18,384 nt of DNA. Origin: an uncultured Kangiella sp. (GTDB lineage Bacteria; Pseudomonadota; Gammaproteobacteria; Enterobacterales; DSM-103792). Positions 4,121 through 12,807 of the stretch are shown one piece after another. The translations under genes and the position numbers were made by a program. The notes under the pieces are model-generated. The model made no database searches, was not told the DNA's origin, and saw only the letters and a program-made list of their open reading frames with translations. The number at the start of each line of letters is the position of its first letter. The stretch's first letter is position 1. The DNA lies in contig CAMLNB010000050.1 in NCBI GenBank assembly GCA_946481205.1, positions 1-18,384 on the forward strand, read 5' to 3'.

Positions 4121-5914
4121 TTAGAAGCTGCTGCGCACAGTGACCAACCACTGCACTTGATCCAGCTCTGGATCGTCATCGCGGTCCAGCGGTGAAGCGA
4201 TATCGAGATGGACAACGGTCTGCTTGCCTGGGCTGTCATTGCCGGTACGGGTCGGCATCAGCCGCAAACCAAAGCCGACATCACTTAACCAGCCGCCGTT
4301 GTAACCGTTGTCACGATCGTCATACCAGGCTCGGCCGATATCGGCGAACACGGCCGCGCCGACGTCAAATAGCGACAACACTTCGGTGAACAGATAGAAC
4401 CGCTCCTCGAAGGTCAACAAAGCCATGCGATTACCGACTTGATAGTTGGAAGGGTAGCCGCGCAAACCGGTGTCACCACCGAGCATGATGGGCTCATCCA
4501 GAAACAAGTTGCGACCATGCTGCAGGCGCAAGCCGGTAAAAAACTGATGGCTGGCAAAATCGCCGATGTGATAACGCAGCTGCATCTGGCTCAGCTGATG
4601 CGTCGGCGTGCCACCGTCATACCAACCCGACAGATTCGCGCTCAGGTACAGCACTTGATTGTCGGCGGGCAGAAAATAGCGTTCCAGCGCCGCTTCGATC
4701 CGCCAACCCTTGTCGTCGGCGCCGAAGCGCTCGCTGGAGCGACCAAGCCGCAAGGTGCTGAGCCAACCGAGATTGATGTCTTCGATGCGGCGCATCTGAT
4801 TGACGTTGACGGCTTTGACATACTGATCTTCGACGCGCTGCCACTCCAGCCACACGTAACGATAAAGCCGATCACTCGGCAGTGGCTGACCGTCAACGCT
4901 GTCTTCATTTACGGCAAACTGATCACGCTTTTCGCTGAAACCGAACAGCCAGCGCTGGGTCTCGCCGGCGATCAGGCCTTTTGACCAGCCCGCGTAAACA
5001 GTTCCGCGGTCTTCCTGATGCTCGAATGACTGCACTTCCTCATCACGAAAATACAGGTCGTCATCCAATACCGAGTGAAAGGTTTCAACACCACCGGCCC
5101 ATGGCGTTTCCAGTGAAAAGAACGGTCGCGACAACTCGAACAGATGGCTCTTGCCATCGTCGTTGTCGGTGTATTCCAGATCGAGAATGCTGCGAGTATT
5201 GCCCAGGCTGGGATCACGGTAACCGAACACGGTGCCAGTGCGCTCCTCGTCCCGTTCTCGAACGATACTGACCGCGCGGCCGGTACCGAGGAAGTTGCTG
5301 TCCTTGAAGCCGAATCGGCTGCTGTTGTCGCCGCCGCTACGGGAAAAACCCACGTCCGGTACCAAGGTCCAGACGTCCTTCACCCGGACTTCCAGATCCA
5401 CTTGCTCGGCGCATTCACCAACCGGCTTGATGCTGGCTTCGCGCAGGTAACGGCGGGTGCGTAACAAACGCTCGGACTCGGCCAGACGGTAGGCGCTGAA
5501 GGGTTCACCGGACTGGAACAGCAGATCGTCGGCGATGACCTTGTGATCGGTGTCAACGTGCAGATCATTGACCAGCCGGAACAACCAGTTGTCTTCGTCG
5601 GGATTGTTGGTATCGAAAATCGGATCGACCACGATATCGATCTGGCCCACTGGCAATTGCCGTTGCTCAAACGCCGCCAGCGCGGCGGGGTCGGCACCGC
5701 TTTCGGGAATGGCCAAGCAGCCGTGCCGCGGCACGGTTTCACCGGTGGTTACCTCTGGCTCGTTGGCCACGACATCGTCGCCAATCGGTTCGGTGACGAC
5801 AACCGGCGGCTCGGTAACGATAGGTTCGCTGGCGACAACGGAACCCGCGACGGCGAGTCCCGTGAGGAGGAGCCCGCGCAAAAACTGGCCTTGCCACAAC
5901 ATAAGACAACGCAC
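4121..5914 (-). CDS. Omp85/TamA-like outer membrane protein, probably one POTRA domain
   Basis: This is a 597-residue predicted outer-membrane protein of the BamA/TamA superfamily. Residues 1-29 look like a Sec signal peptide (LLLTGLAVAGSVVA, cleavage near SEP). A Val/Pro/acidic linker (30-60) follows, then one POTRA-like region (about 88-182, with the typical ADDLLFQSGEPFSAYRLAES and a terminal VRVKDVWTL strand). A beta-barrel runs to the end, with the loop-6 signature GGDTGLRGYP (479-488) and a C-terminal aromatic (VTVRSSF). Family members fold or insert outer-membrane proteins or move lipids, but the substrate cannot be read here. It is too short for BamA (about 800 residues, five POTRA) and not a typical three-POTRA TamA. 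The start is GTG at 5914, ten bases from AAGGAGG; ATG 5902 lacks a well-placed site. It stands alone between ftsH and folP on the opposite strand, so it looks inserted into a conserved string. Confidence 0.85.
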   Translation of the reverse strand: MRCLMLWQGQFLRGLLLTGLAVAGSVVASEPIVTEPPVVVTEPIGDDVVANEPEVTTGETVPRHGCLAIPESGADPAALAAFEQRQLPVGQIDIVVDPIFDTNNPDEDNWLFRLVNDLHVDTDHKVIADDLLFQSGEPFSAYRLAESERLLRTRRYLREASIKPVGECAEQVDLEVRVKDVWTLVPDVGFSRSGGDNSSRFGFKDSNFLGTGRAVSIVRERDEERTGTVFGYRDPSLGNTRSILDLEYTDNDDGKSHLFELSRPFFSLETPWAGGVETFHSVLDDDLYFRDEEVQSFEHQEDRGTVYAGWSKGLIAGETQRWLFGFSEKRDQFAVNEDSVDGQPLPSDRLYRYVWLEWQRVEDQYVKAVNVNQMRRIEDINLGWLSTLRLGRSSERFGADDKGWRIEAALERYFLPADNQVLYLSANLSGWYDGGTPTHQLSQMQLRYHIGDFASHQFFTGLRLQHGRNLFLDEPIMLGGDTGLRGYPSNYQVGNRMALLTFEERFYLFTEVLSLFDVGAAVFADIGRAWYDDRDNGYNGGWLSDVGFGLRLMPTRTGNDSPGKQTVVHLDIASPLDRDDDPELDQVQWLVTVRSSF

Positions 5915-5924
5915 GCCGGATCAA

Positions 5925-5931
5925 CCTCCTT
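5925..5931 (-). promoter_or_regulatory. Ribosome binding site that selects the GTG start at 5914
   Basis: On the minus strand this reads AAGGAGG, ten bases before GTG 5914-5912. The in-frame ATG four codons later would be 22 bases away. Confidence 0.6.
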
Positions 5932-5973
5932 GCATGTCCGCTGTGACTGATGGCAGCGGCCCGGTCGAGCCCG

Positions 5974-6002
5974 AGTATACCAGCCCGATCTGACCGTCGC
6001 AG
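5974..6002 (-). promoter_or_regulatory. Candidate promoter for the Omp85-like gene
   Basis: On the minus strand, TATACT (5979-5974) is preceded by TGG, giving an extended -10 pattern. A weak -35 (CTGCGA, 6002-5997) lies 17 bases upstream. The predicted transcript would start about 50 bases before the GTG start. Confidence 0.4.
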
Positions 6003-6054
6003 TGGGCACCTGCCGGTGCGATAATGAGCGCTTCATCGCTCACGAAATCACCAC

Positions 6055-6906
6055 ATGGCTGCTTCTGGCTTTACCTGGCCGCGCTCCGGTCCGCCGCTGC
6101 TGATGGGGATCATCAACGCCACGCCGGATTCTTTTTCCGATGGCGGCCGTTATCTGCAGCGTGATGCCGCCGTTCGCCATGCCGAGCAGCTGCTGGCGGC
6201 CGGAGCCGATATCCTCGATATCGGTGGCGAGTCCACCCGGCCTGGCGCGGCGCCAGTCAGCGTGCAGCAGGAACTGGATCGGGTACTGCCGGTGATCGAA
6301 GCGGTGCATCAGCTGGGCGCGCTGATCTCGGTAGACACCAGCCGTACCGCGGTCATGCAGGCGGCACTTGCTGCCGGCGCGCGTATCATCAATGATGTGC
6401 GCGCTCTGGCTGATGACGGCGCCATGGCGCTGGTGGCAGCACAGCGGGTTCCGGTCTGTCTGATGCATATGCAAGGCGAGCCGCGCTCGATGCAAGTGCA
6501 GCCGCATTACCGCGATGTGCTGACCGAGGTTGCGGAATTTTTGCAGCAACGTACCGCCCAGTGTCTCGCCGCCGGTATCGCTGCGGAACAAATCTGTCTC
6601 GACCCCGGCTTTGGTTTTGGCAAAACCACGACGCACAATCTGCAGTTGCTGAAAGGGTTACCGGCCATTTGCCGCCTTGGCTATCCGGTATTGGCCGGCT
6701 TGTCGCGCAAACGATTGATCGGCGATGTGACCGGCGCACCGGTTGAGCAGCGCGTGATTGGCAGTGTCGCGTTGGCGTTGCTCGCCGCGCAGAACGGCGC
6801 CCGCATTTTGCGGGTTCATGATGTCAAAGAGACCAAACAGGTTTTGCAATTGTGGCTGGCAATGGAAGCGTCGGCCGATGTCGTATCACACGGGGAATCA
6901 GCATGA
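6055..6906 (+). CDS. folP: Dihydropteroate synthase
   Basis: FolP condenses p-aminobenzoate with 6-hydroxymethyl-dihydropterin pyrophosphate to make dihydropteroate, and is the sulfonamide target in cytosolic folate synthesis. The 283-residue TIM barrel shows the family landmarks in order: [14 protein letters not shown] (18-31), [11 protein letters not shown] (55-65), SVDTSR (92-97), IINDV (111-115), MHMQG (137-141), [13 protein letters not shown] (183-195), GLSRKR (215-220, with the pyrophosphate- and PABA-contacting Ser/Arg/Lys) and RVHDV (253-257). All expected active-site positions look intact. ATG 6055 gives the right N-terminus, although no strong ribosome binding site is visible; an upstream ATG at 6024 is out of frame. 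Its TGA overlaps the glmM ATG by four bases (ATGA), so the two are probably translationally coupled. Confidence 0.97.
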
Positions 6907-8237: not shown

Positions 8238-8254
8238 TTGGTGTGTAGTTGAAC

Positions 8255-8284
8255 AAAAAAGCGCGTCAATCGACGCGCTTTTTT
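8255..8284. terminator. Bidirectional intrinsic terminator after glmM
   Basis: The stem GCGCGTC (8261-8267) / GACGCGC (8272-8278) has an AATC loop and is flanked by AAAAAA and TTTTTT. It lies between the convergent ends of glmM and the EAL-domain gene and can work in both directions. Confidence 0.9.
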
Positions 8285-8312
8285 GTTTCTGGCGAGCGGC
8301 TTCGCCGCTGTC

Positions 8313-10676
8313 TCACACTTTCAGATTGCTGCCGACCTGTTGCAACCACTGCCGGAAATCCTCCGCCGGTACCGGCCGGCTGAAATGATAGCCCTGACCG
8401 CGATTACAACCCCAGTCGCGCAGTAGCAGCGCCTGTTCGCGCTGCTCAATGCCTTCGGCCACGACGGTCAGGCCCAAGTTGTGACCCAGCTCAATGGTCG
8501 AGCGGACAATCGCGGCATCGCCGCCGTCGGCCTGCAGATGGCGGATGAATGCCTGATCAATTTTCAACTCCTGCACCGGCAGCTTTTTCAAATACGCCAG
8601 TGAGGAGTAGCCGGTGCCGAAGTCATCAATCGCCAGCGTCACTCCGAGCTGGCGCAAGCGGCCGAGCAAGGCCATGGCGCGTTCCGGCTCATCCATAAAA
8701 CCGCTTTCGGTGATTTCGAGACCGAGCAGATCCGGCGCGATCTGGCTGCTGGCCAGCGATTCGGCAATGAAATCGCTGAGGCTGTCATCGAGCAAATCAT
8801 GGGTCGAAATATTCACGGCGATATGCACCGACAAACCGGAGGCCTGCCACTCGCGGCTCTGACTGAGCGCGCGGGCGATGATCCACCGGGTCAAGCGTTT
8901 GATATCGCCGGTTTGTTCGGCGAACGGAATGAAATCGATCGGCGGGATGAAGCCGCGTTGCGGATGCTGCCAGCGCACCAGCGCTTCGCAATGGCCGTGG
9001 CCATCGCCTTGCAGATCGATCTTTGGTTGATAAAACAACCGCAGTTCGTTTTCGGCAACGGCGCGGCGCAGATCACCGAGCAAACTCACATGTTCGGCAC
9101 GGAACGGTTGCAAGCCCGGGTCAAAGCGGACAATGCTGCGCCGCTGCTGCCGGCTGTAATAGAGCGCGACATCGACTGCACGCAGCAGGGCGCCAGTGCG
9201 CGTGCCATCATCGGGTGCAACCGCGTAGCCAAAGCTGGCACGCAGATCGACGGTATGGCCGTCGATAACGAAAGCCTGCTGCATGCTCGCCGCCAATTGC
9301 TCGGCGATCTGCTTGGCTTCTGCATCACCGGCCGCCGGCAACAGCACACCGTATTCATCGGCACCGAGTCGCGCCAGCGTTGCTGTCTCAGGCAACCGCT
9401 GACGCAACCGCTCGCCAGCCGCTTTCAGCAACTGATCGCCAAGGGCATGGCCGAGTGTGTTGTTGATCAGTTTGAACCGATCCAGATCCAGCAGCAGCAC
9501 CGCGGTCGGTTCAGCATTCTTCAACAACGTGGTCAGCTGTTCGGTGAAGTAGGTGCGATTCGGCAGTCCAGTCAGCGGATCGCGATAAGCCAGATCAAGA
9601 ATTTGTTGTTCGCGATTGGCGATAGTCGCCTGCATGGTGTTGAACGCCTGGGCCAGCTCGCCGATTTCATCGCCGCTGCGGATGTCGGCATTGACCCGGT
9701 AATCACCGCTTTCCATGCGTCGTGCGGCGGCCTGCAATTGCTGCAGCGGCTTGACGATGCCGCGGGCCAGCAGCACGGTAGCGATCAGCGCCAGCAGCAG
9801 CGCCACGCCGCCGAGCAGCAACAAATAGCGCTGCAATTGCCGGTGCGGCGCCAAGGCCAGTTCGAGCGAGCGTTGCAGCACCGCGACTTCCCGGCTGTTG
9901 CTTTCACCAATAGGAACGATCAGCGTCTGGTACGGTGTGCCGTCAAGCGTTACGGTTTGCACGCTGTCACGTGCCAGCGCCACCATCTGCTGCCGTAATT
10001 GCTCGGCCAGTTCCGGAGCCAAGCTGCTGGCTTGCAGATGCCAATCGCCCGTCGCGCTGTCCTGCTGTGCTAGCTGGCCCAGAAACGAAATCTGCAGGCC
10101 GGTCAGTTTGTGCAGATCACTGACAACCTCGCCGTCAATCAGAAAAGCCATCGCGACCACGGCAACCGGCAATGGCGCCCGGACGATGACCACGACCAAT
10201 TGATAAGCCTGGCCATCGAGGCTGACGATATCGCTGGCGGCGCCGTTGTCGCGCGCGCGTTGCAGCAAAGTCGGGAACGGAAAGTCGCCGCGGCTGGCAC
10301 CGCTGCGACTGTCGGCCAGCAATTGGCCTTCGAGTGTTGCCGCCAAACTGAGATCGGCGCGAATGCGGCTGCGATGGCTTTGCAGTGCCGACTCGATGGT
10401 GCCGGCATCCTGGCTGGCAACCGCTTCGCGAAAACCATAGTCTGCTGCGAGCACGCGTGCCGCTTGGATCAGCTGTTGCTGATTCTGTTCCAGCGCACGC
10501 TGAAACACGCCGCGGCCGAGCAGCAATTCCTGCTGCAATTGATCACTGATGATGCCGCGCTGAACCTGACTGACCAGCAACAGCACCGCTGCAATGACCA
10601 GCAGCAACAAGCCGCCATAGGTCATTGCGAGGCGCCGACTCAGATACCGGCGCGGTATGCTGGCGGTGTGTTGCAT
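8313..10676 (-). CDS. Membrane-bound sensor with degenerate GGDEF and intact EAL domain (probable c-di-GMP phosphodiesterase)
   Basis: The 787 residues read as TM1 (about 19-38), a periplasmic sensor (40-283) that resembles double-Cache domains (segment LAADYGFREAVASQDAGTI), TM2 (284-304), HAMP (305-358, including the DEIGELAQAFNTM segment), GGDEF (about 365-520) and EAL (about 530-780). The GGDEF signature is GADEY (438-442), and no RxxD inhibitory site is seen upstream, so cyclase activity is doubtful. The EAL residues are complete by family comparison: E564 (EAL), N622, E654, D684 and D685 (DDFGTGYSS), K705, E741 and Q761. I infer a phosphodiesterase that degrades c-di-GMP under control of a periplasmic signal, with the GGDEF domain perhaps binding GTP as a regulator. 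ATG 10676 overlaps the stop of the cupredoxin gene (TGATG), so it is the last gene of a coupled three-gene operon. Confidence 0.93.
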   Translation of the reverse strand: MQHTASIPRRYLSRRLAMTYGGLLLLVIAAVLLLVSQVQRGIISDQLQQELLLGRGVFQRALEQNQQQLIQAARVLAADYGFREAVASQDAGTIESALQSHRSRIRADLSLAATLEGQLLADSRSGASRGDFPFPTLLQRARDNGAASDIVSLDGQAYQLVVVIVRAPLPVAVVAMAFLIDGEVVSDLHKLTGLQISFLGQLAQQDSATGDWHLQASSLAPELAEQLRQQMVALARDSVQTVTLDGTPYQTLIVPIGESNSREVAVLQRSLELALAPHRQLQRYLLLLGGVALLLALIATVLLARGIVKPLQQLQAAARRMESGDYRVNADIRSGDEIGELAQAFNTMQATIANREQQILDLAYRDPLTGLPNRTYFTEQLTTLLKNAEPTAVLLLDLDRFKLINNTLGHALGDQLLKAAGERLRQRLPETATLARLGADEYGVLLPAAGDAEAKQIAEQLAASMQQAFVIDGHTVDLRASFGYAVAPDDGTRTGALLRAVDVALYYSRQQRRSIVRFDPGLQPFRAEHVSLLGDLRRAVAENELRLFYQPKIDLQGDGHGHCEALVRWQHPQRGFIPPIDFIPFAEQTGDIKRLTRWIIARALSQSREWQASGLSVHIAVNISTHDLLDDSLSDFIAESLASSQIAPDLLGLEITESGFMDEPERAMALLGRLRQLGVTLAIDDFGTGYSSLAYLKKLPVQELKIDQAFIRHLQADGGDAAIVRSTIELGHNLGLTVVAEGIEQREQALLLRDWGCNRGQGYHFSRPVPAEDFRQWLQQVGSNLKV

Positions 10677-11293
10677 CAGTAGTCCGGATCCTGCCGCGGT
10701 CGTTGCCGCAGCGCCAAGGTCAGCGTCAACGGCGTAGTGTGGTCGGTCACCGTAATTGCCTGCGGCTTGGCGATGCCAAGCAGATCCGGATGCCAGTATT
10801 CCAGCGTGTGCGGCCCTGGTGGCAATTGCAGCACGGCGATACCCTGCGCATTGCTGCGGCCATACCAGGGCGTGTCGACCACCAGAATATGCGCCAGCAT
10901 CCAGTCATGGATATTGCAGCCGAGCGTGACCACGCCCGGTTTGTCGAACAGCACCGGCTCGGCCGGCACGCCGCTGTACAGTTTCAGCTCGAATTTTTTC
11001 GGATCAGAAAACGAGTAAACGTGATGGCGGATATTGTCCTTGTTCGGAAAGCGGATTTTGCTGCCGACCGGAACCACGCTGACATACGGCACAAACTCTT
11101 TGTTGATCTGATCGATATCGGTCAGCAAACCGGCTGGCTTGGCGGCGCTGGAAGGCACGTAGACGACGACATCGGCCAGCGGTTCGCCTGCGCTGGTTTT
11201 GATCTGCACTTGCAATTCGGCGGCGGTTGTTGTGCCGATTGCCACACCGACGCCAGCCAACAGCAGTGCTGCCATGCCATACGTGTTTCGCAT
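10676..11293 (-). CDS. Exported cupredoxin-like protein (amicyanin-type copper motif)
   Basis: The 205 residues begin with a Sec signal peptide (about 1-25, ending TTTAA). A cupredoxin-like region runs to about 140. Candidate type-1 copper ligands are H90 or H91 (NIRHHVYSF) and C126-x2-H129-x2-M132 in GCNIHDWM; this Cys/His/Met spacing is that of amicyanin. Residues 146-200 look like a small beta-sandwich add-on (QLPPGPHTLEYWHPDLLG). Such proteins are often named methylamine utilization protein by similarity to amicyanin, but no methylamine dehydrogenase genes are nearby, so that role is not supported. It probably carries electrons or binds copper in the periplasm. Start and stop codons overlap the neighbours as TGATG on both sides, between an exported globin and an EAL-domain sensor, which argues for a shared function. 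Confidence 0.85.
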   Translation of the reverse strand: MRNTYGMAALLLAGVGVAIGTTTAAELQVQIKTSAGEPLADVVVYVPSSAAKPAGLLTDIDQINKEFVPYVSVVPVGSKIRFPNKDNIRHHVYSFSDPKKFELKLYSGVPAEPVLFDKPGVVTLGCNIHDWMLAHILVVDTPWYGRSNAQGIAVLQLPPGPHTLEYWHPDLLGIAKPQAITVTDHTTPLTLTLALRQRPRQDPDY

Positions 11294-11718
11294 CAGGGAC
11301 CTGCTGCAACGGGATGCACGACTTGCGGTTTCATCGGCGCCAGCAGTGCCAGCAGCTCGTTCTTTTCCCGCGTGCCAATGCCTTGTTCGTCAAGGATGAC
11401 CCGCAGCTGTTCAACCAAGCCATAAAACTCCCGCTCGGTAATGTTGAGGCCGCGGTGGACCAAACGCATGTCATCCCCCGTATAGGTACAGGGCCCACCC
11501 GCGAGCACGCAAAACTGCTCGGCCAGCTTGTCCTTGACCCGGTCGAGGTTGACCTTGTTGAAACTGCGTTTGGTCACCGGATCGGTGCTGGAGACATCGA
11601 TCAGTTTGCCGGTGATGGTTTTCAGCACCGGCAGACCACCGATGCGGCTATAGAGGCTGTCATCAGCCGATAGCCGGGTTGACAGGCAGAGCAACAGCAG
11701 CAGGCAGCAGCGCAACAT
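11293..11718 (-). CDS. Exported group 1 truncated haemoglobin
   Basis: The 141-residue product has a short Sec-type signal peptide (MLRCCLLLLLCLSTRLSA), then a TrHbN-like 2-over-2 globin. Landmarks are LYSRIGG (22-28), GGPCTYTGDDM (74-84) and the proximal haem ligand H88 in MRLVHRGLNIT, aligning with H81 of mycobacterial HbN. By hand alignment, the distal Tyr-B10 and Gln-E11 of HbN are replaced by aliphatic residues (near I40 and L66), suggesting different ligand chemistry. C70 and C77 bracket the GGP turn and could form a disulfide after export. An ATG at 11748 would add ten residues; ATG 11718 is preferred because GGAGGG lies ten bases upstream and the hydrophobic signal begins there. It is the first gene of the operon with the cupredoxin and EAL genes. 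Confidence 0.85.
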   Translation of the reverse strand: MLRCCLLLLLCLSTRLSADDSLYSRIGGLPVLKTITGKLIDVSSTDPVTKRSFNKVNLDRVKDKLAEQFCVLAGGPCTYTGDDMRLVHRGLNITEREFYGLVEQLRVILDEQGIGTREKNELLALLAPMKPQVVHPVAAGP

Positions 11719-11728
11719 TTTTGACAGG

Positions 11729-11734
11729 CCCTCC
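11729..11734 (-). promoter_or_regulatory. Ribosome binding site that selects the globin start at 11718
   Basis: On the minus strand this reads GGAGGG, ten bases before ATG 11718. It lies inside the longer alternative frame that begins at 11748, which supports the shorter protein. Confidence 0.6.
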
Positions 11735-11750
11735 GGGGCGATTAGCATTG

Positions 11751-11779
11751 AGCATAGCCAGTGACCGGATGTTGGTCAT
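11751..11779 (-). promoter_or_regulatory. Candidate promoter of the globin-cupredoxin-EAL operon
   Basis: On the minus strand, ATGACC (11779-11774) and TATGCT (11756-11751) are separated by 17 bases, each matching the sigma-70 boxes at four of six positions. The transcript would begin near 11744, leaving about 25 bases before ATG 11718. The -35 overlaps one of the GGTCAC-like half-sites described for this region. Confidence 0.4.
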
Positions 11780-11821
11780 CCGAAACTGATCACTTGAAAC
11801 AGGTCACCTGAAACAGGAGCG
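11761..11821. repeat. 14-bp periodic repeats in the divergent globin / DUF3034 region
   Basis: GGTCAC-like hexamers occur at 11774 (GGTCAT), 11788 (GATCAC) and 11802 (GGTCAC), exactly 14 bp apart, with an inverted copy (GTGACC) at 11761-11766. In longer form, CACTTGAAACAGG (11791-11803) and CACCTGAAACAGG (11805-11817) are direct repeats with one mismatch. CAGGTCACCTG (11800-11810) is also an inverted repeat with 5-base arms. This looks like a multi-site operator for a regulator binding one face of the helix; the regulator is unknown. Confidence 0.6.
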
Positions 11822-11825
11822 GGAC

Positions 11826-12710
11826 ATGGGCGAGGCCCTCACAGCGATCTCCGGATCGGTCATACGAGCCGTTTTGCTGTTTGCGCTAGTGCAGACGGCC
11901 AGCGTCAACGCCGATCCGGGCGGTCGCTTGCCTGCCACCGGCGGCGTGGTGTCGGTTGATGGCAGCGGCGGTGGCGGCTTGACCAGTTGGGCGCTGATCA
12001 CGGGCTATGGCACCGCCGATGAGTGGGGCGGCGCCATCAGCTACACCCGGCTGCCGTTGCCCGATTACACCTTCGAAAGCACGGCGCTGACAGTGGGCCT
12101 GTTCGACCGGTTCGAGCTGAGCCTCGGTCGCCAGCGCTTTGATCTGGAAGATGTGGTGCCCGGTGAGCAGATCACGCAGGACATCGTTGGCCTGAAATGG
12201 CGTCTGGCTGGCGATGCCGTCTTTGCCCCGGACTCGGCGATGCCGCAGCTGGCCCTTGGCCTGCAGCACAAACGCAATCGCGATTTTGATTTCATCCCGG
12301 CGGCGCTGGGCGGTGAGCATGAACGCGATACCGAGCTTTATCTGGCCGCCAGTAAGCTCTATTTCGGCGCGGTGTTCGGCCACAACCTGCTGGTCAATGC
12401 CGGGCTGCGTTACAGCCGGGCCAATCAATTCGGTCTGCTGGGTTTCGGCGGCCCGGAGGGCGATGACCGCGAGTGGCTTGGCGAATTGGCGCTCGGGCTG
12501 TTCTTGACCGACAGTCTGGTGCTGGGCGCCGAATACCGGCAAAAGCCGGACAATCTCGCCTTTGCCGAAGATGACGCCCGCGATGCCTTCCTGGCTTGGG
12601 TGCCGAACCGGCGGTTTGCGCTGACGCTGGCCCGGGTCGATCTGGGCCGGATCGCCGTGACCCCAGACGATCAAACCGGCACCTATCTGCAGCTGCAGCT
12701 CAATTATTGA
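11826..12710 (+). CDS. DUF3034 family exported protein, probable outer-membrane beta-barrel
   Basis: The 294-residue product matches the DUF3034 pattern as I know it: a signal peptide (about 1-29, ending VNA), then GGRLPATGG (32-40), LTSWALITGYGTADEW (52-67), FDRFELSLGRQRF (93-105), QDIVGLKWRLAGDAVF (118-133), ANQFGLLGFGG (199-209) and GAEYRQKPDNL (234-244). Alternating polar and hydrophobic strands and a C-terminal aromatic (QLNY) suggest an outer-membrane beta-barrel; no function is established for the family. ATG 11826 is supported by AGGAG six bases upstream (11815-11819). It is divergent from the globin-cupredoxin-EAL operon, across a region of 14-bp repeats, so the two units may share a regulator. 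No clear sigma-70 promoter or terminator was found for it. Confidence 0.82.
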   Translation: MGEALTAISGSVIRAVLLFALVQTASVNADPGGRLPATGGVVSVDGSGGGGLTSWALITGYGTADEWGGAISYTRLPLPDYTFESTALTVGLFDRFELSLGRQRFDLEDVVPGEQITQDIVGLKWRLAGDAVFAPDSAMPQLALGLQHKRNRDFDFIPAALGGEHERDTELYLAASKLYFGAVFGHNLLVNAGLRYSRANQFGLLGFGGPEGDDREWLGELALGLFLTDSLVLGAEYRQKPDNLAFAEDDARDAFLAWVPNRRFALTLARVDLGRIAVTPDDQTGTYLQLQLNY

Positions 12711-12731
12711 CCAATCGTCTTCCTGCCTCGC

Positions 12732-12773
12732 GCGGCGACCGGTGCGTTGCTTGTAACTTGCCGGCGTCGCCGC
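12732..12773. repeat. Inverted repeat enclosing the tpiA -35 region
   Basis: GCGGCGAC (12732-12739) and GTCGCCGC (12766-12773) are perfect inverted 8-base arms with 26 bases between them. The arms enclose the proposed -35 box and end directly against the -10 box of the tpiA promoter. It could be an operator or, in RNA from the upstream gene, a hairpin; there is no T-run. Confidence 0.45.
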
Positions 12774-12779
12774 TACCAT
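12751..12779 (+). promoter_or_regulatory. Candidate tpiA promoter
   Basis: TTGTAA (12751-12756) and TACCAT (12774-12779) are separated by exactly 17 bases, each matching four of six consensus positions. The transcript would begin near 12786, about 22 bases before ATG 12808. Confidence 0.45.
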
Positions 12780-12807
12780 ATGCGCCCGCTTCGCCAGGCC
12801 CTTTTTT

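Follow-up and report, generated by a model that had tools for sequence, protein, structure and literature searches.

Four adjacent genes in an 18,384-nucleotide stretch of DNA from an uncultured Kangiella sp. (hereafter: the window) raise the question of what an exported truncated haemoglobin (trHb), an exported cupredoxin, a membrane-bound sensor with a GGDEF-EAL output and a putative outer-membrane barrel of the DUF3034 family could have to do with each other. An earlier note on this DNA had proposed that globin and copper protein together detect or process a gas or redox signal in the periplasm, that the sensor passes this signal on to the turnover of cyclic di-GMP (c-di-GMP), and that the DUF3034 protein supplies a component of the outer membrane. 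By a comparative analysis of the genome context of the four families we found that the genes constitute a real and recurrent module, that its core is the pair formed by the cupredoxin and its receptor and not the globin, and that DUF3034 and globin form an optional accessory.

Genome context of the cupredoxin and its receptor

Two collections were used, namely a sample of 299 Pseudomonadota genomes, drawn evenly, the centre of which (G001) was already known to carry the module, and a scan of representative genomes anchored on the cupredoxin, from which the best 80 of 584 confirmed relatives were taken. In the sample, DUF3034 was found in 25 genomes and the cupredoxin in 39, and 24 of the 25 have both (Fisher p = 3.7e-24, with genome kinship ignored). 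The globin stands beside DUF3034 in 25/25 genomes, to be compared with a Bac_globin match in 154/299 overall, and in the same 25 genomes the cupredoxin lies at most 3 kb away in 20 and a receptor of the subfamily described below stands beside DUF3034 and globin in 18. The earlier note had made its case depend on the four families being neighbours elsewhere, and in 17 of the 25 all four are indeed together, so that the module can be considered real on the basis of both linkage and co-occurrence. The scan gave a similar picture: a trHb in 34 of the 80 loci, DUF3034 in 32, and a globin in all of these 32.

The association between cupredoxin and receptor was assessed with a profile built from 24 paired sensor domains, i.e. 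the periplasmic domains of receptors encoded beside the cupredoxin. This profile identified 37 receptor places in 32 of the 299 genomes, 28 of which are immediate neighbours of the cupredoxin, with some 50-140 nt from match to match, while 2 further places share the cupredoxin cluster as second receptors (G001, G241). The cupredoxin is present in 31 of the 32 receptor genomes (Fisher p = 1.4e-33, kinship again ignored); dCache_3 domains in general are far commoner (117/299 genomes). A gene on the same strand that combines sensor and output lies within 1.5 kb at 29/42 cupredoxin places in the sample and at 74/81 in the anchor scan plus the window. Many loci have the pair with neither globin nor DUF3034, and for that reason the globin is best seen as an accessory that travels with DUF3034. 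Consequently, the notion of globin and copper protein as joint inputs survives in one half only: the cupredoxin is linked with the receptor, whereas the globin is no equal input, as the pair persists without it.

The receptor and its sensor subfamily

The window receptor consists of a dCache_3 periplasmic domain, a HAMP domain, a GGDEF domain and an EAL domain (Table 1). Alignment of the 24 paired sensor domains revealed a motif of Asp79, Phe82, Thr93, Ser96, Asn100 and Arg104, each present in 22-24 of the 24 (the window receptor has Ser at position 100), and in 17 unpaired dCache_3 domains a different residue is the most frequent one at each of these columns; Asp90 is common to paired and unpaired domains. 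The unpaired controls are 20 domains hand-picked from the listed matches, minus three that proved to belong to the paired subfamily (L197, L204, L205), and one control (L199) gave a weak match of 12.8 bits to the paired-sensor profile. No nearly invariant Cys, His or Met was found in the 24 aligned periplasmic domains, which implies that metal chemistry must come from a partner.

With respect to the output, the window receptor has all EAL catalytic motifs (EALVRW, VNIS, EITES, DDFGTG, LKID, EGIE and QGY), and these are mostly kept, with single departures, across 85 aligned relatives, in which the GGDEF motif is variable (GGDEF in 28/85 and GADEY in 3/85). Given this difference in conservation, the output is likely a c-di-GMP phosphodiesterase, as judged from the sequence. 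The earlier note had correctly read GADEY in the window receptor, which differs from the GG(D/E)EF expected of a diguanylate cyclase, although its degeneracy is no hallmark of the family, as the motif position varies throughout. Scores against the named c-di-GMP families stayed below the NCBIfam equivalog cut-offs (DibA 445.5 against 980 bits, DosP 339 against 857 and LapD 152.8 against 1020).

The cupredoxin

The partner of the receptor scored above no Pfam or NCBIfam cut-off, and its identity as a cupredoxin follows from an invariant ligand set and the predicted fold. Residues H90, C126, H129 and M132, which we take to be the type 1 copper ligands, are invariant in 28/28 sequences and include a C-x2-H-x2-M loop of the amicyanin type, and H90 is matched by a His in the cupredoxin 5fc9 (E 0.019). 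The stretch IRHHVYSFS marks a conserved face of the protein. The structural model has a cupredoxin fold, with a predicted insertion in a transthyretin-like/CarboxypepD_reg-like domain, and comparison of the cupredoxin-alignment profile with the PDB returned 3 weak matches, mostly to the C-terminal sandwich. The protein is thus predicted to be an exported type 1 cupredoxin of the amicyanin type, which would bind copper and be redox-active; the closest known proteins are the type 1 copper electron carriers amicyanin, pseudoazurin and plastocyanin. The family is large (at least 7934 of 8000 scored candidates matched) and its named members are annotated as 'methylamine utilization protein' or 'plastocyanin'. 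Among the matches listed, the nearest organism-named relatives are from Permianibacter (69-70% identity), and two further matches reach 100% and 87%. Some rows of the alignments A2 and A3 carry extra N-terminal letters, as they derive from stop-to-stop frames.

Exchange of outputs and barrels

Some loci carry, instead of DUF3034, a member of an uncharacterised family of ~300 aa (F3), which is present in 20/80 scan loci and adjoins the cupredoxin in those inspected (examples in Table 1). To describe the combinations, 123 cupredoxin places from window, scan and sample were typed, with barrel and globin scored anywhere in the locus; this set, like that of the 60 globins discussed below, mixes scan and sample loci and includes some duplicates (the genome of L009 is that of L168), and at three contig ends (L007, L152, L153) a partner may be missing. 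An EAL receptor with DUF3034 and globin is found at 50 of the 123 places, an EAL receptor with neither barrel at 29 (plus 1 with the globin only, L027) and an EAL receptor with F3 at 8. At 11 places the receptor is a class III cyclase accompanied by F3, plus 1 with a globin (L007). The remainder comprises a kinase receptor (L160), four histidine kinases, two with a match to the sensor profile (L069, L159) and two without (L161, L165), two GGDEF-only outputs (one of which, L013, has an upstream EAL receptor as well) and 16 places with no same-strand output gene nearby.

The earlier note had placed the output in c-di-GMP turnover. Such an output is no essential part of the system, because cyclase and kinase receptors are paired with the cupredoxin as well: Pfam confirms dCache_3-HAMP-Guanylate_cyc (PF00211, class III) in L014 (from Methylovulum), L040 and L051, and a dCache_3-HAMP-Pkinase receptor of the Ser/Thr type adjoining the cupredoxin gene in L160 (3532-6258, minus strand). 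A histidine kinase is possibly a further output. F3 replaces DUF3034 in 11/12 cyclase loci, and the two families never occur in the same locus among the 123 places. In a cupredoxin tree of 101 rows, many branches of which are weak (41/98 open), the labels are clustered, with 6 changes needed for the output and 12 for the barrel type; a group of 7 rows with EAL and F3 (support 95) lies beside the rows with cyclase and F3, as expected from a swap of the output that keeps the barrel. Metagenome records with the titles Chthoniobacterales (L018, L053), Nitrospiria (L044) and Myxococcota (L051) contain cupredoxin-cyclase pairs too, so the pair is seemingly not confined to the Pseudomonadota.

Two neighbourhoods were noted in passing. 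In L159 a di-haem CCP_MauG gene (5684-6754, minus strand) is flanked by the genes of the cupredoxin and of a hybrid histidine kinase, and in L149 a PAS-GGDEF gene (4224-6133, plus strand) and a DUF4394 gene are found directly upstream of the gene of a family cupredoxin.

The DUF3034 barrel and F3

The DUF3034 protein of the window matches its Pfam family over the full profile (PF11231, 5.1e-92, positions 1-255 of 255). Its model has 12 strands of at least 8 residues, with a predicted local distance difference test (pLDDT) score of 81.1 and residues 28-50 below 50, and its C-terminal residue is aromatic. The best structural neighbours are FapF, KdgM and NanC, and all matches shown are outer-membrane or designed barrels, judged by their titles. 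Since unrelated 12-stranded barrels score high too, the model supports only the prediction of an outer-membrane beta-barrel. A second copy of DUF3034 was noted in G082 (C3:72638-73313, L106-L108), where it consists of three pieces with an internal stop codon and adjoins a globin frame.

F3 gave no Pfam match in 4/5 members scanned and a sub-cut-off barrel-like match in the fifth (L070), and its C-termini are aromatic in 18/20, by which the family appears barrel-like. Its identification as a form of DUF3034 was considered and rejected, as the profile comparison gave a probability of only 7.5% (E 0.0047, 72 columns).

The globin

The globin of the window matches Bac_globin (PF01152, 4.8e-11), is similar to HbN and other solved trHb1 proteins and, by its sequence, is an exported group 1 trHb, which would be loaded with haem. 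An internal ATG at position 11718, preceded by GGAGGG, is probably its actual start. Truncated globins are mostly cytoplasmic proteins. The module globin differs from other trHb1 proteins in being exported, in being probably lipidated in most relatives and in a conserved pair of Cys residues: among 60 globins (that of the window and its relatives), Cys80 is present in 60/60 and Cys87 in 59/60, along with His98 and Phe63 in 60/60 each. A Cys occupies the column of residue 21 in 45/60, window included, and in Pseudomonas globins a lipobox-like stretch (e.g. LLLSACAQ) can be recognised by eye at this position, suggesting that the globin is probably a lipoprotein in most relatives; for the window globin lipidation is unsure, as its LLLLC is less typical.

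Provided that residues 28-143 of the window globin and 11-126 of HbN are equal spans without gaps, His98 and Phe63 fall at the HbN positions which we take to be His81 and Phe46. Under the same provision, the window globin is aliphatic at positions 50 and 75, where Tyr33 and Gln58 of HbN would fall, presumably the distal pair that stabilises bound O2. Within the family, position 50 is Leu in 40, Ile in 8, Val in 6 and Tyr in 2 of 60 and position 75 is Leu in 50/60, and the Tyr/Gln pair that is typical of, while not defining for, the HbN type is lacking. By analogy, the globin is predicted to be poor at stabilising O2, which would leave roles in nitric oxide (NO), CO or redox chemistry.

Proposed mechanism and its alternatives

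The interpretation that we favour, with moderate confidence, is that the module is a sensory cassette spanning the cell envelope, in which the exported blue copper protein is the periplasmic partner of a dedicated dCache_3-HAMP receptor, with DUF3034 and globin as accessory. The cupredoxin would act as a co-receptor, or as the carrier of a redox or copper signal, for the membrane receptor, the output of which in the window would be a c-di-GMP phosphodiesterase (EAL). The DUF3034 barrel would reside in the outer membrane with the globin held in the periplasm nearby, and together these would import or modify a signal that is most probably NO or a redox-active species; electrons may pass between them and the cupredoxin. 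A copper protein as signal carrier is the simplest mechanism, as it is the usual partner of receptors that have no conserved metal ligand of their own; contact between the two proteins we infer, as we do the lipidation, the identity of the signal (with redox state, copper and NO as the leading options) and the direction of the effect on c-di-GMP. More tentatively, the module may represent a new class of transmembrane signalling, in which a cupredoxin co-receptor reports redox state or copper to c-di-GMP, cyclase and kinase outputs alike, and in the main c-di-GMP form of which the barrel and the lipoprotein globin add a gas such as NO to the input.

Several observations weigh against a cassette built around the cupredoxin and its receptor. 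First, linkage is in itself no proof of contact between the two, and it has exceptions: 7/37 receptor places lie away from the cupredoxin (G146, G162, G130, G211 C1, G229 C12, G123, G019), 8/39 cupredoxin genomes have no receptor at the profile threshold, and 13/42 cupredoxin places of the sample have no receptor nearby, some of them being located beside a redoxin (L145) or Band_7 (L156) gene. The other three genes occur with no receptor beside them in G146, G250 and G023; in G217, G229 and G265 DUF3034 and globin are at one site and a cupredoxin-receptor pair is at another; in G130 the receptor stands beside DUF3034 with the cupredoxin elsewhere in the genome; and in G082 both cupredoxin and receptor are missing at the thresholds applied. 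Second, the exchange of outputs beyond EAL and cyclase rests on few loci, i.e. one kinase and weak cases of histidine kinases: the hybrid histidine kinase of L006 has dCache_3 and is encoded on the opposite strand, those of L159 and L161 gave no dCache_3 match by Pfam, and that of L069, 589 nt upstream, matches the sensor profile only. Third, the trees of the module parts are of limited help. Across 86 EAL loci the cupredoxin is more closely correlated with the sensor domain (0.67) than with the EAL domain (0.48), whereas in the 49 complete loci, where all five trees are correlated (Spearman 0.71-0.86), the value of 0.77 for cupredoxin and sensor barely exceeds the 0.73 found for both cupredoxin-EAL and cupredoxin-DUF3034, so that the trees do not demonstrate any special co-evolution at an interface. 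The module parts are largely inherited together and the correlation singles out no interface. Fourth, FNR/ANR operators are not enriched before the cupredoxin (1/123 regions, against 0-2 in five shuffles); the commonest 8-mers upstream of the cupredoxin are mostly GC-rich.

A further observation of this kind, the presence of DUF3034, cupredoxin and globin with no receptor of the paired type in L169, L180 and L182, leads to the best of the alternatives, namely that the module is mainly an enzyme system in which the cupredoxin keeps the periplasmic globin reduced so that it can act on NO or peroxide, the substrate enters through DUF3034, and the receptor only senses that substrate and adjusts lifestyle. 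Cupredoxins are the usual electron donors of the periplasm, where an exported globin has no flavin reductase at hand, and the CCP_MauG gene between cupredoxin and kinase genes in L159 fits such a scheme too. However, the pair persists without the globin in the 29 barrel-less EAL rows and in the F3 rows (8 EAL, 11 cyclase), and the globin positions 50 and 75 are not polar, which, by analogy, would argue against O2-dependent NO dioxygenation; we regard an enzyme system as unlikely. Somewhat less probable again is the transport of a cargo, in which DUF3034 or F3 would move a copper chelate, haem or a polypeptide, globin or cupredoxin would be the carrier, and the receptor would provide feedback on the traffic. 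Shared regulation without any joint mechanism (e.g. in a low-oxygen or copper regulon) is in line with the fact that neighbourhood alone never proves mechanism and with the existence of at least four gene orders, some on two strands, but it is very improbable given that the partners stay together through these rearrangements, pair reciprocally and include a receptor subfamily of its own.

Organisation of the locus

The order of the window (DUF3034 on one strand; globin, cupredoxin and receptor on the other) recurs in L003, L004, L010, L016, L035 and L066. In Pseudomonas the order is cupredoxin, receptor, DUF3034, globin, and in Caballeronia (L017, L064) it is DUF3034, globin, cupredoxin, receptor; in a fourth arrangement (L173, L183-L185) receptor and cupredoxin are divergent from DUF3034 and globin. 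Pseudomonas chlororaphis (L009) is among the relatives with all four genes. Seven Pseudomonas loci (L011, L022, L025, L029, L055, L061, L071) have the cupredoxin between two sensor-EAL genes on the same strand, and in the record of Pseudomonas lactucae a receptor gene is split over three reading frames (L061:6571-8986).

Table 1. Positions of the module genes, receptor domains and putative regulatory elements in the window, and of exemplary F3 genes in other loci.
Feature	Position	Strand	Details
EAL receptor gene (P0001)	8313-10676	-	787 aa
dCache_3 periplasmic domain	receptor residues 56-267		Pfam 4.8e-11
HAMP	receptor residues 302-352		Pfam 1.5e-17
GGDEF domain with GADEY motif	receptor residues 363-513		Pfam 4.8e-38
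EAL domain with usual catalytic motifs	receptor residues 535-768		Pfam 2.8e-72
Cupredoxin gene (P0002)	10676-11293	-	205 aa
trHb gene (P0003)	11293-11748	-	151 aa as called
Sigma-70-like promoter match	11721-11748	+	TTGACA-16-TAGCAT; reads towards DUF3034; consensus match only
Imperfect direct repeat	11773-11814		TGGTCATCCGAAAC / AGGTCACCTGAAAC; divergent intergenic region
DUF3034 gene (P0004)	11826-12710	+	294 aa
F3 example	L013:7020-7985		
F3 example	L014:7068-7970		
F3 example	L019:7017-7916		

In the window itself, coordinates and Pfam matches bear out the arrangement described in the earlier note: the three minus-strand genes overlap by TGATG at the globin/cupredoxin and cupredoxin/receptor junctions (catca on the plus strand, 11291-11295 and 10674-10678, respectively) and DUF3034 is divergent from them across a gap of 77 bp, with the globin as called. 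The promoter match (1 found, against a mean of 0.1 in shuffles) is inside the globin gene as called and outside it if translation starts at 11718. The direct repeats constitute a possible operator, which may also have arisen by chance; a third related copy can be seen by eye between TGGTCATCCGAAAC and AGGTCACCTGAAAC.

The surroundings are those of housekeeping genes, in the order greA, yhbY, rlmE/ftsJ, ftsH, folP, glmM, the module, tpiA, secG, tRNA-Leu and a run of nuo genes. In many gammaproteobacteria glmM and tpiA-secG-tRNA-Leu are neighbours, and in the window they are split by the module (8238-12807), which may be an inserted cassette. A gene for an Omp85/ShlB-like protein of 597 aa (4121-5914, minus strand) is situated between ftsH and folP, on the strand opposite to both.

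Comparison with known systems

No description of the module was found in the open-access literature, which is no proof of novelty as most subscription journals and preprints were outside the scope of the search. In the excerpts of the sources retrieved, trHbs and EAL/GGDEF genes of Fe oxidisers are reported and not linked to each other (PMC3770913), DUF3034 is named in a figure legend, which we take as a slip for DUF3037 (PMC12548924), and the copper protein concerned is a plant plastocyanin (PMC6337780).

The analysis suggests a mode of sensing redox state, copper or a gas across the cell envelope that does not seem to have been described before. The cassette would give the periplasm a route by which redox state, copper or NO is reported to c-di-GMP or to class III cyclases, and it suggests a function that can be tested for DUF3034 and for a large family of cupredoxins. 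Because the outputs differ and the pair does not, the result of a single biochemical test would be informative for many organisms.

The roles known for copper proteins are those of electron carrier and enzyme. In linking a protein of gas or redox chemistry to c-di-GMP turnover, the module resembles DosP, the globin-coupled cyclases, H-NOX and NosP. In these systems the haem domain is cytoplasmic and is part of the enzyme or bound to it, whereas the module has its haem and copper proteins outside the cytoplasm and a receptor that lacks a haem domain. The proposed use of a soluble protein of the periplasm as carrier of the signal to a membrane receptor recalls LuxP-LuxQ, ChvE-VirA and YfiR-YfiN; the module differs from these in having a blue copper protein in this role and a receptor whose output class is swapped between loci.

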